In this document: positions 53,388 through 61,431 of the stretch, in pieces
How the letters are laid out: each line of letters starts with the position of its first letter
Position numbering within the stretch: position 1 is the first letter of the stretch
Source: Verrucomicrobiales bacterium
GTDB taxonomy: Bacteria > Verrucomicrobiota > Verrucomicrobiia > Verrucomicrobiales > DEV007
Reading direction: 5' to 3'
Assembly (NCBI GenBank): GCA_029233965.1
Contig: JARGOP010000016.1
Span: 1-64,000, forward strand
Length of the DNA: 64,000 nucleotides
Notes under the pieces: generated by a model
What the model was told of the DNA's origin: nothing
The model's database searches: none
Seen by the model: the letters and a program-made list of their open reading frames with translations, nothing else
Made by a program: the position numbers and the translations under genes

Positions 53388-54809
<1,422 letters not shown>

Positions 54810-54861
54810 CTACTCGTTGAGGGTCTAAGTTATAATTTAAATGGAAAGGAGAGATCACGGG

Positions 54862-55764
54862 TTATTCAAGAGCCTTCATGGCCGTGGTGATCTCGAGCAG
54901 TTCTGCGGTAATAGCCGCCTGGCGCTGCTTGTTGTATTCCAGGGTGAGATCCTTGATCATCTGCTGCGCGTTATCGGTCGCGGCTTTCATCGCCACCATG
55001 CGGGCACTGTGCTCGGAGGCACGTGACTCAAGAATCATCTGGTAAAGCTGGTAGTTCACATACTGCGGAACGATGGAATCGAGCACGGAGCCGGCACTTG
55101 GCTCGAAAAGATAGCCGCCATACTCAGGACCCGGATTCACATCAAGAGGACCGGGATCTTTGCCCACACCCACAAAATCACTGTCGCGTCCGAGATCAAT
55201 TGGACGAATCGGGAGCAGGGTCTCCACGGTCGCCTCCTGACTGATCGTGTTGATAAAGTTCGTGAAGGCCACTTTGACGCGGTCGTATTCCCCACTGAGG
55301 AACTTCTCGATCGCAAATTCGGAAATCTGCTTGGTCTCGAGAAAAGCCACCGGATCCTTCACCGCGAAATCAGCGAGCAGCTCCCGCTTCATACGGGAAA
55401 GAGCCTGACTTCCTTTTCGGCCCACGGTGACAAAAACAGCTTCCGTCGAGACGTTCTCCTGACTCGAAACAAGACGAAGGAGGTTCGTATTGAGAGGACC
55501 GCATAGCCCTTTGTCCGTCGTCACGACGATGACGAGTTCTTTCTCCCCATCCCGCTCTTTCAGGAGCGGATGATCTTCTTCACTGGTCTGCTCCTTGAGA
55601 TTCACGAGCACCTTATTGAGAAGATCAGCATAAGGCCGACCGGACATGGCCTGGTCCTGCGCCTTCTTCATCTTCGAAGCCGCGACCAATTGCATGGCCT
55701 TGGTAATCTGGGCCGTGTTTTTGACCGACTTGATGCGTCGGCGGATGTCGCGAAGGTTAGCCAT
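54862..55764 (-). CDS. atpG: ATP synthase gamma subunit
   Basis: A 300-residue central-shaft subunit. The N-terminal coiled coil begins ANLRDIRRRIKSVKNTAQITKAMQLVAASKMKKAQ. The central region has KELVIVVTTDKGLCGPLNTN. The C-terminal helix ends ARMVAMKAATDNAQQMIKDLTLEYNKQRQAAITAELLEITTAMKALE, the conserved rotor tip. The length is at the usual size for bacteria. It lies between atpA and atpD. Confidence 0.97.
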   Translation of the reverse strand: MANLRDIRRRIKSVKNTAQITKAMQLVAASKMKKAQDQAMSGRPYADLLNKVLVNLKEQTSEEDHPLLKERDGEKELVIVVTTDKGLCGPLNTNLLRLVSSQENVSTEAVFVTVGRKGSQALSRMKRELLADFAVKDPVAFLETKQISEFAIEKFLSGEYDRVKVAFTNFINTISQEATVETLLPIRPIDLGRDSDFVGVGKDPGPLDVNPGPEYGGYLFEPSAGSVLDSIVPQYVNYQLYQMILESRASEHSARMVAMKAATDNAQQMIKDLTLEYNKQRQAAITAELLEITTAMKALE

Positions 55765-55796
55765 GTCTCAATGAAACAGTCGTCGGATAAATCGGG

Positions 55797-57335
55797 TTAG
55801 GAAGCCTTGTAGCCTGACTTGAAGTCTTCAATCGCCTGAGCAAGTTCCTCTTTGACCTGGTCAGTGAGGGCTTTCTCATCGCGGATCAAACTAAGCAGAC
55901 CGTCCTTACGAGTGGAGAGAAACTCCATCATCTTGTCCTGGCAATCCTTAATGTGAGAAACCTGAACATTGTCGAAGTGACCATTCTGAATTGCCCAGAG
56001 AACGCAGACCTGAACTTCCACCGGGATCGGGGAATACTGCTTCTGCTTGAAGAGTTCCACGATACGCTGACCACGCTCGATCTGAGCCTTGGTCTTCGCG
56101 TCGAGATCGGAACCAAACTGGGCAAAAGCCTGAAGTTCGCGGAACTGAGCAAGATCGAGTTTGATTGTGCCCGCCACCTTCTTGACCGCCTTCGTCTGCG
56201 CCGCAGAACCCACCCGGCTCACGGAAAGACCCACCGAAATCGCGGGGCGGATCCCCTGATAGAAGAGATCGGTCTCCAGATAGATCTGACCGTCCGTGAT
56301 CGAAATCACGTTCGTCGGAATGTAAGCCGAAACGTCACCGGCCTGAGTCTCAATGATCGGAAGCGCCGTCAGGGAACCGCCACCATTGGCCTCACTGAGG
56401 CGGGCGGAGCGCTCGAGGAGACGACTGTGAAGGTAGAAAACGTCACCGGGATATGCTTCACGACCGGAGGGGCGGCGGAGAACAAGAGAAACCTGACGAT
56501 AGGCAACCGCGTGCTTGGAAAGATCATCATAGACGATAAGAGCATCCATGCCCTGATCCATGAACCACTCACCGATAGCGCAACCACCATAGGGAGCCAG
56601 ATACTGATTCGTCGCTGAGTCGGAGGCGGGAGCGGAAACCACGGTGGTGTATTCCATGGCACCGGCCGATTCGAGAATCGCGATGTTACGGGCGACGTTC
56701 GCCTGCTTCTGGCCGATCGCCACGTAGATACAGTAAAGAGGCTTGTGATCCTTGAGCTTACCTTCTTCGGCAGCCTTGTTCTGCTGGGCCTGGGAAATGA
56801 TCGTATCGATCGCCACCGTCGTTTTCCCCGTGGAACGGTCACCAATGATGAGCTCGCGCTGGCCACGGCCAACAGGAATCATCGCATCGATCGCCATGAT
56901 ACCGGTCTGCACCGGAACGGAAACAGACTGACGGGGAATAATGCCGGGAGCAATTTTCTCGACGGGGTAGGTTTCGGTGGACTCAATTTCCCCCTTGCCG
57001 TCGAGCGGCTGCCCGAGAGCATTCACGACACGCCCGAGAAGACCTTTGCCGACCGGAACAGAGAGAAGACGTCCCGTGGACTTCACTTCATCCCCTTCCT
57101 TCACATGAAGCCCTTCCCCGAGAAGAATACAACCCACTTCGGTTTCTTCGAGGTTCAGCGCCAAGCCGTAGAGTCCGCCGGGGAACTCAAGCATTTCGTT
57201 CAGCATGACATCACTGAGGCCTTCGACCTTGGCGACACCGTCACCAATTTCCCGGACAATTCCCACGTTCGACTTCGATACGGAAGTCTTAAGGGCTGCG
57301 ATTTCAGATTCCAGTTCCTGGAGGATATTGCTCAT
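55797..57335 (-). CDS. atpA: ATP synthase alpha subunit
   Basis: A 512-residue non-catalytic nucleotide-binding subunit. The Walker A is [16 protein letters not shown], and the region [49 protein letters not shown] is diagnostic. The arginine finger lies in [15 protein letters not shown]. The protein is complete and typical in length. It follows atpH by 49 bp. Confidence 0.98.
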
Positions 57336-57384
57336 GACGTTTCGTCAGGTTCTTCGCTACGATGAATCGTTTCGATTAAGTTAC

Positions 57385-57780
57385 TTAGTTAAAATTCTCT
57401 TCGAGACGCTGGATGCGATTCTTCACCGAACCATCCCAAACGTCACTTCCAATCTTGATGCGAATCCCGCCGAGAAGCTCGGGGCGGACCGCATATTCCG
57501 TGGTGACTTGATCACCGTATTTCTTTCTCAGATCCCCTTCCACCTGCTTTCTTGTCGCCGTATCAAGCTCAATCGCACTTTCAATCAGGGCACTGTTCCG
57601 CTCGACTTCGAGACGGACCAAACGCCAGTAAGCAGTCACCACCTGAAGGTAGCCGCGAGGCTTGGCATCAGACAATTTACGCACCACCTTCTGAACGACC
57701 TGAGGATCCAGAACGCCATCCACCATCGAAACCTGAAACAGCTTCTTCGCCGTGCGCTTCAATTCTTTGCCTGACTTCAT
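57385..57780 (-). CDS. atpH: ATP synthase delta subunit, short form
   Basis: A 131-residue protein (ATG at 57780) where most delta subunits have about 175-185 residues. The C-terminal domain is intact (RKQVEGDLRKKYGDQVTTEYAVRPELLGGIRIKIGSDVWDGSVKNRIQRLEE), including the LLGGIRIKIGSDVWDGS signature. The N-terminal six-helix domain that binds the tip of alpha is much reduced (KSGKELKRTAKKLFQVSMVDGV). The ORF track's extension to 57891 overlaps atpF and gives Arg/Pro-rich sequence that does not look like delta. The short form is probably normal for this lineage. Confidence 0.9.
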   Translation of the reverse strand: MKSGKELKRTAKKLFQVSMVDGVLDPQVVQKVVRKLSDAKPRGYLQVVTAYWRLVRLEVERNSALIESAIELDTATRKQVEGDLRKKYGDQVTTEYAVRPELLGGIRIKIGSDVWDGSVKNRIQRLEENFN

Positions 57781-57799
57781 GCAATGGAATTTACCTGGA

Positions 57800-58300
57800 C
57801 TAGAGCGCCACCTGTCCGGCGGTCTCCTCATTAATCCGTTTTTGATCACCTTCATCCAACACCTTACCGGTAACTTTGGACGTCGCCTCAATGACGAGAT
57901 GCCCGAAGTCGCGCTTCAGCTCATTCATCGCGGTCTGGTGCTCAAGCCTGGAAGCTTCGCGAGCTTTCTCGATAATCGTCTGAGCTTCGTTGATCGCCTC
58001 TTGTGATTTCTGGGAACGAAGCGCCTCGCTGCTCTCGCGAGCCTCTGCGATAAGACGTTCCGCACCTTTGTTCGCTTCATCGAGAAGAGCCTGAACCCTC
58101 TCTTCAGCCTTGGCCATATCCTCCTCGACCTGCTTCAGATTTCTCTCCCCTGCTTCGATCCGGGAACGACGCTCATCAAGCATGGCGAGAACCGGCTTAA
58201 AAGCATATTTGGCGAGGATCGCGTAAACCACGAGGACAACGATGCACTGAGCGATAAACTTTCCCCAGTCGAGGCCGAAAGTCGTTAAAATGTCGTTCAT
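57800..58300 (-). CDS. atpF: ATP synthase b subunit
   Basis: A 166-residue stator subunit. One N-terminal membrane helix (about residues 11-32, WGKFIAQCIVVLVVYAILAKYAF) is followed by a long Glu/Lys/Ala-rich coiled coil (ERRSRIEAGERNLKQVEEDMAKAEERVQALLDEANKGAERLI) that links F0 to F1. There is only one b-type gene, so the stator is probably a homodimer. It starts 102 bp after atpE. Confidence 0.95.
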   Translation of the reverse strand: MNDILTTFGLDWGKFIAQCIVVLVVYAILAKYAFKPVLAMLDERRSRIEAGERNLKQVEEDMAKAEERVQALLDEANKGAERLIAEARESSEALRSQKSQEAINEAQTIIEKAREASRLEHQTAMNELKRDFGHLVIEATSKVTGKVLDEGDQKRINEETAGQVAL

Positions 58301-58402
58301 TGGTTAAGTAAAGGCTGGATGAGACGCAGAAAAGTTTCCCGGGAAAGGCGGCCTGCGGCAAATGGAGTTGCCGCAGACCAAAACCTTAATCGATCTATCG
58401 AA

Positions 58403-58660
58403 TTAACGAAGAGCAATAATGAGAGCGTAAATCGCAATCGCCTCAGCAAGCGCCATTCCAATAATACCGATGGTAAGAATGTTACCAAATGCACTTGGGT
58501 TACGGCCCACTGCCTGAGCGGATGCCATTCCGATCATTCCAATACCGATCGCAGCACCGGCACCCGCAATCGCGAGTGTGAAGTTACCGTCGAAGTTGGA
58601 AGCAACAGCGACTGCATCATCTGCAGCGGCTGCCATCATGGGAAGGAGTTCCAGGGTCAT
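58403..58660 (-). CDS. atpE: ATP synthase c subunit
   Basis: An 85-residue rotor-ring hairpin. I use the ATG at 58660 (MTLELLPMMAAAADD); the track's 58726 start is too long. TM1 is Gly-rich (LAIAGAGAAIGIGMIGMASAQAVG), the polar loop is R-N-P, and TM2 carries the ion-binding Glu73 (IGMALAEAIAIYALIIAL). The Glu is followed by Ala, and TM1 lacks the Gln found in Na+-binding c-subunits, so proton coupling is expected. It lies between atpB and atpF. Confidence 0.95.
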   Translation of the reverse strand: MTLELLPMMAAAADDAVAVASNFDGNFTLAIAGAGAAIGIGMIGMASAQAVGRNPSAFGNILTIGIIGMALAEAIAIYALIIALR

Positions 58661-58739
58661 AGCTTTTATTTTGTTACTGTTTCTCTGCCACCGCCCACAC
58701 TTTTCCACGCATGGTCCCGATGACAAAATTGGTTACCAC

Positions 58740-59603
58740 TCAGTGATCGTCGTGGCTGGTTGAAAGTTTGATGTAGACGGCGCAAAGAAGCGCAAACACC
58801 GTCGCCTGAAGCGCTCCGATCAGAATCTCCAGAAAGTAGAACGGAAGAGGAAAAACAACAGAGGTGATGGCCGAGAGCCAACCGGGAAATCCCAGGGTCG
58901 CCCCGAGCCCCTGCATGGTCGCAAGGAGTGTCTCACCGGCGTAGACATTTCCAAAAAGTCGCAGCGAGAGCGACATCGGGCGGAAGACGATCGAAATCAC
59001 CTCGATCAATCCGACAAAAATGAAGATCGGCATGAGCGCCCACATCAGAACCCCCTTGAGACCGCCCTTCGGCCCGAAGATATGAAGAAAGGTCCCCTTG
59101 ACTCCCAGTTCAGCGACTGAAATCCAGAGCCAGACGAACATGAAGACCACCGCCAGAGCGAGCGTCATGTTTAAGTCCGCCGTAGCCGGACGGAGGAGAG
59201 GAGTCTCCATGTAGGAAATCGTCAGCGGCCCGCTGGTCTGCCCCCATCCAATCGTTCCAACACCCGGAACCATGCCGAACCAGTTGGCGACTACCACGAA
59301 AATGAAAATGGTCGCAAGGAGGGGGAAGGCCTTCGGCGCCACGTGCTTCCCGACAATGCCCTCCACCTGGTTGTAGAGGAATTCGATGACCAACTCGACA
59401 AAGTTCTGCTTCCCATCCGGAATCAGCTTCATGTTCCGCGTCGCCATCCGCGTGAAAAGAAGCACTCCGACCATCACAATCAGCGCCACGAATATCGAGT
59501 TGGTGAACCACGCAAGGGAGGGAAGCTCGGGGGCGTTCAAGCCGCCGGCAGCGATGAGCGGACTCAACGAATTGAGCGAAATCATGGGCAGGTGCAGGTC
59601 CAT
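58740..59603 (-). CDS. atpB: ATP synthase a subunit
   Basis: A 287-residue F0 membrane subunit with about six hydrophobic segments that forms the proton half-channels next to the c-ring. The essential Arg is in SLSLRLFGNVYAGETLL, and the C-terminal helix region has LPFYFLEILIGALQATVFALLCAVYIKLS. NWFGMVPGVG is a family landmark. It is the first gene of the atpBEFHAGDC order. No atpI-like gene precedes it. Its 159-bp upstream gap holds a CRP/FNR-like palindrome. Confidence 0.97.
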   Translation of the reverse strand: MDLHLPMISLNSLSPLIAAGGLNAPELPSLAWFTNSIFVALIVMVGVLLFTRMATRNMKLIPDGKQNFVELVIEFLYNQVEGIVGKHVAPKAFPLLATIFIFVVVANWFGMVPGVGTIGWGQTSGPLTISYMETPLLRPATADLNMTLALAVVFMFVWLWISVAELGVKGTFLHIFGPKGGLKGVLMWALMPIFIFVGLIEVISIVFRPMSLSLRLFGNVYAGETLLATMQGLGATLGFPGWLSAITSVVFPLPFYFLEILIGALQATVFALLCAVYIKLSTSHDDH

Positions 59604-59704
59604 CAGTTACGACAGGAAGAAGGCCAATCAGGGGGTATTTCGAGAGCGACGGGACCTTTCTTCAGTGCGCACCCTAAGCAATGGGATTCGTCTCGCAACA
59701 GCAA

Positions 59705-59724
59705 TTTGTGAAAAATTTCACAAA
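59705..59724. promoter_or_regulatory. CRP/FNR-like palindrome upstream of the atp operon
   Basis: TTTGTGAAA, two As, TTTCACAAA: 9-bp arms with perfect symmetry. It contains TGTGA-N6-TCACA (59707-59722), the textbook CRP consensus. It lies 102 bp upstream of the atpB ATG and about 40 bp past the AsmA-like gene's stop. A 6-bp hairpin GTGTCG/CGACAC (59729-59744) sits between it and that stop. The site could regulate the ATP synthase operon. No CRP/FNR-family gene is in the window. Confidence 0.6.
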
Positions 59725-59762
59725 GTCTGTGTCGTCCTCGACACGTATTAGAAAATTCGAAC

Positions 59763-61235
59763 TCAGGGGCGCCTCAGGAAAGGGCTCAGCATGTCGAGGA
59801 GCGGCTTGGCCTGTTCGATCAAATCGGAGGAATCGACCGCAGGATCGTCGCCGTCAGGACTCGTGGGCAGAAACTTGTAGGCTTCCTTCAAAATCCCTTC
59901 GGGCAGGCCTTTCAAAATCTCCTCCCCGGCTGCCGCAATGAGACGGCTGCTCAAGTCTTCGCGAGGCTCGCTCACGGTCCCGGTCAAAGTAAGCGGTGCC
60001 CAGAGAAAGCCGTCTTTGCTCTCCGTGAAAACCTGACGCTCTGCCCCCGGAATCCAGCGCAGCGTTCCCGGAGTCACTCCGACACGACAGATTCCTTCGA
60101 GGCTTTCTCCCAAAATCGTGATGTCACCCTCCACTCTCACGAGCCCATCCGATTGCAGCACGAGATCATTCAGCTCGACAACGTCACCCTCACGTCTGAA
60201 GCCGGTTTTTGCTTCGCTGAAGACGAGCTGTTTGAACTGCTCGTTTCTCGTGTATTCCGCAATCAGCGCAAGCACCGGAATCGATTTGGCAGTGGCCTCC
60301 TTCACCCGCAGCTCACCCTCATAGAGAAAGGCACCCGGTTTTCCGGTGACTTTGACGGGCCCCTCAACCAATCCATCGAGCCGATCCGACCAGTCCCCCT
60401 CGACCAAATCGTCCACTTTGATAGAGGAAAGCTCGAGATCGAGGTCAAATACACCTTCTTCCCCGAACCCGATTTCCCCGGCGGCGGCGACCGATCCATT
60501 CCCGAAAACACTGAGGGAACAGCGATCAATGAACAGATCCGACCGCTTCCAGCGCATTGCCAGCTCCCGGATCCCGACCTCCTCCTGATTGGGAACAAGA
60601 ACGGTGCCTCCTTTCATGAGGATTTCCCAAATGCGGGTATTGAAATCAGGCCGGATCGTTCCCTGCGCTCCCTTCAGGAGAAAGGCCGGTTCATTCGCGC
60701 TGTTCAACACCGAAATCTGAGTCGAGCCAACCGCGATCTCATCGACCTCGACCCGGTTCGGCAGGAAGCGTTTCAACCAGTCCGGAACCGAGGGCCCGCC
60801 GGATGAATCAAGATCGATTACTTCGCTTTCGCGCGGAGCCTTCGTCCGCCGGTCCGAAAACTCCAGATCGAGACGGTTCACCGAAGCTTCCGGGACCCGG
60901 AACGCTCCCGCTCTGACTCCGCCGGTCTTCACGCGAACCCCGTCCAGTTTGAGTTCGGCAAAAGGAGCTCCCTCATAGCCAAGCGCCTGAAACTGGTCCA
61001 CGTAGACCTCCGAGCCCTGCCACTTCATTTCGGAAAGCAGGATCCGCGACGTCATTGCTGCCGAGGCTTTGTTCACGATCAAATTGCGAAACCCGTCCCC
61101 CCGGAGCCAGGAATCAACACTCGACTTGGCGATCAAGAGGACCACCACCATGATGAGGAGGAGACTGAGGCAGGTGATCAGCACCGCTTTGAGCGGATGA
61201 AATCCCCGGGACTGGCGTTTCGGTTTTCGAGGCAT
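59763..61235 (-). CDS. AsmA-like membrane protein
   Basis: A 490-residue protein with one N-terminal membrane helix (about residues 16-38, LKAVLITCLSLLLIMVVVLLIA), preceded by a basic segment (PRKPKRQ), so the rest is periplasmic. Repeating beta-strand sequence with stretches such as LDLELSSIKVDDLVEGDWSDRLDGLVEGPVKVTGKPG and VVELNDLVLQSDGLVRVEGDITILG resembles AsmA/YhdP-type lipid-handling beta-groove proteins. I start it at the ATG at 61235; another ATG at 61274 would add 13 residues. AsmA-like proteins help outer-membrane lipid transport and assembly. The family call is moderately sure. Confidence 0.75.
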   Translation of the reverse strand: MPRKPKRQSRGFHPLKAVLITCLSLLLIMVVVLLIAKSSVDSWLRGDGFRNLIVNKASAAMTSRILLSEMKWQGSEVYVDQFQALGYEGAPFAELKLDGVRVKTGGVRAGAFRVPEASVNRLDLEFSDRRTKAPRESEVIDLDSSGGPSVPDWLKRFLPNRVEVDEIAVGSTQISVLNSANEPAFLLKGAQGTIRPDFNTRIWEILMKGGTVLVPNQEEVGIRELAMRWKRSDLFIDRCSLSVFGNGSVAAAGEIGFGEEGVFDLDLELSSIKVDDLVEGDWSDRLDGLVEGPVKVTGKPGAFLYEGELRVKEATAKSIPVLALIAEYTRNEQFKQLVFSEAKTGFRREGDVVELNDLVLQSDGLVRVEGDITILGESLEGICRVGVTPGTLRWIPGAERQVFTESKDGFLWAPLTLTGTVSEPREDLSSRLIAAAGEEILKGLPEGILKEAYKFLPTSPDGDDPAVDSSDLIEQAKPLLDMLSPFLRRP

Positions 61236-61431
61236 GTCGGAAGATACGGTAAGTATTCCGTTACGCGGCTCCATGGCAAGTCTTTCGTGGAGGGATCGTC
61301 CCGCAAGGGAGGCTTGTGACCTTCGGCACGACAGCAGCAGGGAAACTGACGCTACCGGACATCCTTATCACGCCAGTGATTCCGTATTCTCAAGCATTGC
61401 GGATTTTCCCGAAACATCCTAGAAGTGTCGC

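Follow-up and report, generated by a model that had tools for sequence, protein, structure and literature searches.

What acts at the palindrome that separates the ATP synthase operon of this Verrucomicrobiales bacterium from the gene upstream of it? From the sequence alone, the TGTGA-N6-TCACA contained in this 20-bp palindrome, 102 bp before atpB, had been taken as a CRP/FNR-type site. We analysed the window (the whole stretch of DNA studied, 64 kb) together with the rest of the genome and a set of related genomes, and the data point to a different regulator, Rex, an NAD(H)-sensing winged-helix repressor.

The palindrome upstream of atpB matches the Rex operator motif

On the minus strand, the genes below the palindrome run in the order atpB, E, F, H, A, G and D, of which atpB, atpE and atpF were assigned by Pfam and the remainder recognised by eye from the ORF sequences. 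The features of this region are:

53388-58726, minus strand: atpE, atpF, atpH-like, atpA, atpG and atpD (ORFs; Pfam matches for atpE and atpF)
58740-59603, minus strand: atpB (F1Fo ATP synthase subunit a), first gene of the operon (PF00119, E 4.9e-49)
59706-59723, minus strand: putative Rex operator (ROP), TTGTGAAATTTTTCACAA (0 mismatches to TTGTGAANNNNTTCACAA; found before atpB in relatives)

The palindrome was located at 59705-59724 (TTTGTGAAAAATTTCACAAA), with mismatch confined to the central base pair, and 102 bp lie between the site edge at 59706 and the atpB ATG (59601-59603, minus strand). Within it, TGTGAAAAATTTCACA at 59707-59722 is the sole exact TGTGA-N6-TCACA in the window, where shuffles gave an expectation of 0.08 per 64 kb. 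About 1e-4 would be expected in 159 bp, in agreement with the earlier judgement that chance is unlikely in that length, and a chance origin was rejected. At full width the site is a perfect 18-mer, TTGTGAA-N4-TTCACAA (59706-59723; 14/14 specified bases), that fits the published Rex operator motif (PMC5355995) at every position. The inner half-sites are identical to those of E. coli-type CRP sites, whereas the conserved bases flanking them on the outer and inner sides match a Rex operator: TGTGA-N6-TCACA is just the inner part of the latter, common to CRP sites. A second palindrome, GTGTCG-TCCT-CGACAC, occurs at 59729-59744, 5 bp off the Rex operator, and is present only in close relatives (L010, L021).

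The genome encodes one Rex and carries perfect operators before three respiratory genes

We found a single Rex gene in the genome (L053:1489-2115, 208 aa). Its product scores 235.6 bits against the NF003992 equivalog model (cut-off 226), exceeds the curated thresholds set for several of NCBIfam's Rex models, contains both Rex domains (winged helix, PF06971; Rossmann, PF02629) with GVGNLG as the GxGxxG motif, and matches solved Rex structures along its whole length (E 4e-39).

A search for more sites, which the sequence-only reading had recommended, yielded three perfect 18-mers in the 4.83-Mb genome vs 0.008 expected from base composition and 0 in a reversed-pattern control. Besides the one before atpB, they precede nuoD (TIGR01962, 556 bits) and the gene for a multihaem cytochrome of 253 aa (Cytochrome_C7 family, PF14522), which from its sequence we infer to be ActA, a subunit of alternative complex III; all three targets are respiratory. 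The nuoD site lies between this gene and a divergent 98-aa ORF (L213) with no Pfam family, and an ORF of 97-124 aa, likewise with no Pfam family, is conserved in relatives, where it shares the Rex site with nuoD. The asymmetric ATTT core points the same way with respect to the gene at each of the three sites (L052, L213, L214); among relatives this orientation is a bias rather than a rule. Two near-matches with one mismatch, at C83 (overlapping an ORF 3' end, ~45 bp before a 682-aa ORF) and at C33 (inside an ORF), were set aside as evidence. Patterns with three mismatches were uninformative (199 matches vs 89 in the control), and no operator with up to three mismatches was found in the 8 kb around the rex gene of this genome.

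The operator is conserved with its target genes and co-occurs with Rex

The 18-mer before atpB is identical in 13 of the 16 nearest loci (L010-L025) and near-intact in the remaining ones, with one base lost in L018 and two changes each in L017 and L025. Conservation extends over the whole 18-mer and takes in the outer T/A and the inner A/T positions that belong to the Rex motif. Since the upstream neighbour of atpB differs in several loci (L012, L019, L022-L024) and the site is kept, the site goes with atpB. We then considered 100 stretches around perfect sites, taken from many genomes within the genus and from seven other Verrucomicrobiales genera. The genes that recur after the 18-mer in Verrucomicrobiales are atpB, nuoD, the actA-like gene, nuoB, nuoG, nuoF, nuoH and those for a NuoL/M-type antiporter subunit and a polyprenyl synthetase, and one site each was found in relatives before the genes for phosphoglycerate kinase and a cbb3-type cytochrome c. 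In a genome from another family of the phylum (G089), a perfect operator precedes rex itself by 22 bp, which fits the autoregulation expected of Rex.

Among the 27 relatives at least 90% complete, Rex was found in 24, all of which (24/24) have 3-9 perfect sites, and the other three have neither Rex nor sites (0 sites in 3/3; Fisher P 3e-4, kinship ignored). These three belong to one genus, of which 12 further genomes also lack both, and the association therefore probably reflects one evolutionary event, a single loss. Elsewhere in the phylum, most Rex-positive genomes, many with a more divergent Rex, are without the exact 18-mer, and their operators perhaps differ; judged by the exact motif, Rex and sites are thus less closely associated phylum-wide. 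One perfect site each occurs in G073, G104 and G157, in which no Rex was detected, and these may be due to chance.

The operator has a fixed spacing to a putative −35 element

After the operator follow, in order, 7 bp, TTGCGA, 16 bp and TAGGGT, and two promoter elements are proposed:

59693-59698, minus strand: putative −35 element TTGCGA, 7 bp downstream of the operator, a spacing that recurs
59671-59676, minus strand: putative −10 element TAGGGT, after a 16-bp spacer; TAnnnT or TATAAG is likewise placed in most relatives

TTGCGA-N16-TAGGGT is a plausible sigma70-type promoter, which would put the operator at ~−59 to −42 and the start near 59664. A TTG exactly 7 bp past the operator is present at 23/25 atpB and 21/22 nuoD sites, as well as at all three nuoF, three of four nuoG, two of three nuoH and both nuoL-like sites; at nuoB sites the spacing is mostly 5 or 7 bp. 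Within each of three single genomes, the 7-bp TTG spacing holds at 5-6 of 8-9 sites (P 5e-6 to 1e-8), and in a fourth genome a 6-bp spacing is commoner. The actA-like sites have no such −35 at 7 bp, and their operator is close to the start codon.

By analogy with characterised Rex proteins, which supply the direction of the NADH response assumed here, Rex dimers would occupy ~−59 to −42 when NADH/NAD+ is low and hamper RNA polymerase at the adjoining −35. A rise in NADH, when electron acceptor or respiratory capacity is limiting, would let Rex bind NADH and release the operator, so that atp and nuo transcription would increase. Rex of Streptomyces avermitilis protects ~27-29 bp around its 18-bp operator (PMC5355995), and a footprint of that size would here reach towards the −35 and could hinder polymerase. 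In S. avermitilis the atpI and nuoA1 operators cover the −35 and extend into the spacer (PMC5355995), whereas the operator described here is 7 bp upstream of the putative −35, a position from which Rex may repress by occlusion or act in another way.

This geometry also invites the alternative that the palindrome is a Rex operator from which Rex activates atp and nuo, or both activates and represses them, acting from ~−50 on a fixed promoter face, with the AAATTTTT core perhaps serving also as an UP element. The rigid 7-bp distance between operator and −35 across unrelated promoters and the uniform orientation of the core, with respect to the gene, in this genome's three sites would suit such a role, and set against it are the spacing of 5 or 6 bp at some sites, the mixed core orientation at nuoD and the actA operator near a start codon without such a −35. 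Characterised Rex proteins, moreover, are mainly repressors. Repression of both atp and nuo in S. avermitilis (PMC5355995) also speaks against activation, which we consider unlikely at these promoters. For Verrucomicrobiales as a whole it seems doubtful that Rex at a fixed site upstream of the −35 is a phase-dependent activator or dual regulator, with the operator doubling as a promoter element, and so brings complex I, alternative complex III and ATP synthase into step with NADH.

No CRP/FNR protein was detected in the genome

Were the palindrome a CRP/FNR-family site, as initially proposed, a cAMP- or oxygen-sensing protein would control atp, and TGTGA-N6-TCACA does match CRP half-sites exactly. 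Nonetheless, the search for CRP/FNR homologues, whose absence had been named beforehand as refuting that proposal, detected none, as far as the 96% completeness of the genome allows: PF00325 found no match, and PF13545 gave two, both under threshold, one of them a MarR-like protein and the second without identifiable protein. Nor was a DNA-binding domain detectable in any of the seven proteins with a cNMP-binding domain, which are stand-alone or fused to a kinase, an NDH-2 dehydrogenase or a fumarase/aspartase-type lyase. In one of them (L004:157-2250, plus strand; G000:C133) an NDH-2-type NADH dehydrogenase is fused to the cNMP-binding domain and two CBS domains, and in another (L007:1-1902, minus strand; G000:C7) the cNMP-binding domain is at the N-terminus of the lyase. 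The absence of CRP/FNR from a 96%-complete genome is strong, if not absolute, evidence. Furthermore, the conserved width is an 18-mer with Rex-type outer and inner bases beyond the CRP arms, the site departs from the 22-bp E. coli CRP consensus at 10 positions and from that of FNR (TTGAT-N4-ATCAA) at 4, and sites are absent from relatives without Rex. With no such protein detected, an 18-mer that is a Rex operator in sequence and a Rex gene present, we rejected CRP/FNR as the factor on grounds of protein absence and motif width, and regard it as very improbable.

Least credible of all is a terminator of the upstream ORF (59763-61274, minus strand; 503 aa, without Pfam or NCBIfam match), whose stop codon is 39 bp from the palindrome, or a hairpin formed by the atpB leader RNA, both of which we rejected on position and conservation: the minus-strand RNA can form an 8-bp stem (z −3.3 for a 56-nt stretch), but this stem is A+U-rich, has no U-run after it and lies upstream of the putative promoter, and the palindrome persists despite changes of upstream neighbour and is found again in front of nuo and actA genes.

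Discussion

Very probably, then, the palindrome is a Rex operator that places atpBEFHAGD in a respiratory Rex regulon with nuo and the ActA-like cytochrome, predicted to be repressed at low NADH and released at high NADH. Joint repression of ATP synthase, complex I and alternative complex III under NADH control is the reading best supported by these sequence comparisons. The earlier idea that atp expression is tied to carbon or oxygen state by CRP/FNR survives in part, a link to respiratory state being very likely, but misnamed the factor family; CRP and Rex sites are not distinguishable from TGTGA-N6-TCACA alone, which calls for caution.

The closest known counterpart is S. avermitilis, whose Rex is a repressor of atpIBEFHAGDC and nuo that binds them less well in the presence of NADH (PMC5355995). 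Common to that ROP system (atpIBEFHAGDC, nuoA1-N1) and the one described here are the motif, ATP synthase and complex I as targets, and a Rex in the genome (PMC5355995). They differ in that the motif is perfect here and mismatched in S. avermitilis (PMC5355995), that the actA-like target is extra here and that rex is no evident target in this genome. Rex is thus already known to control atp and nuo in Streptomyces, and what seem new are the occurrence of such control in Verrucomicrobiales and the constant upstream distance of the operator; a literature search of partial coverage found no paper linking Rex with Verrucomicrobia in a regulon sense. The data provide a concrete candidate regulon, with complex I, an ActA-type complex and ATP synthase apparently set together by one NADH sensor, in a phylum whose transcriptional regulation is little known.
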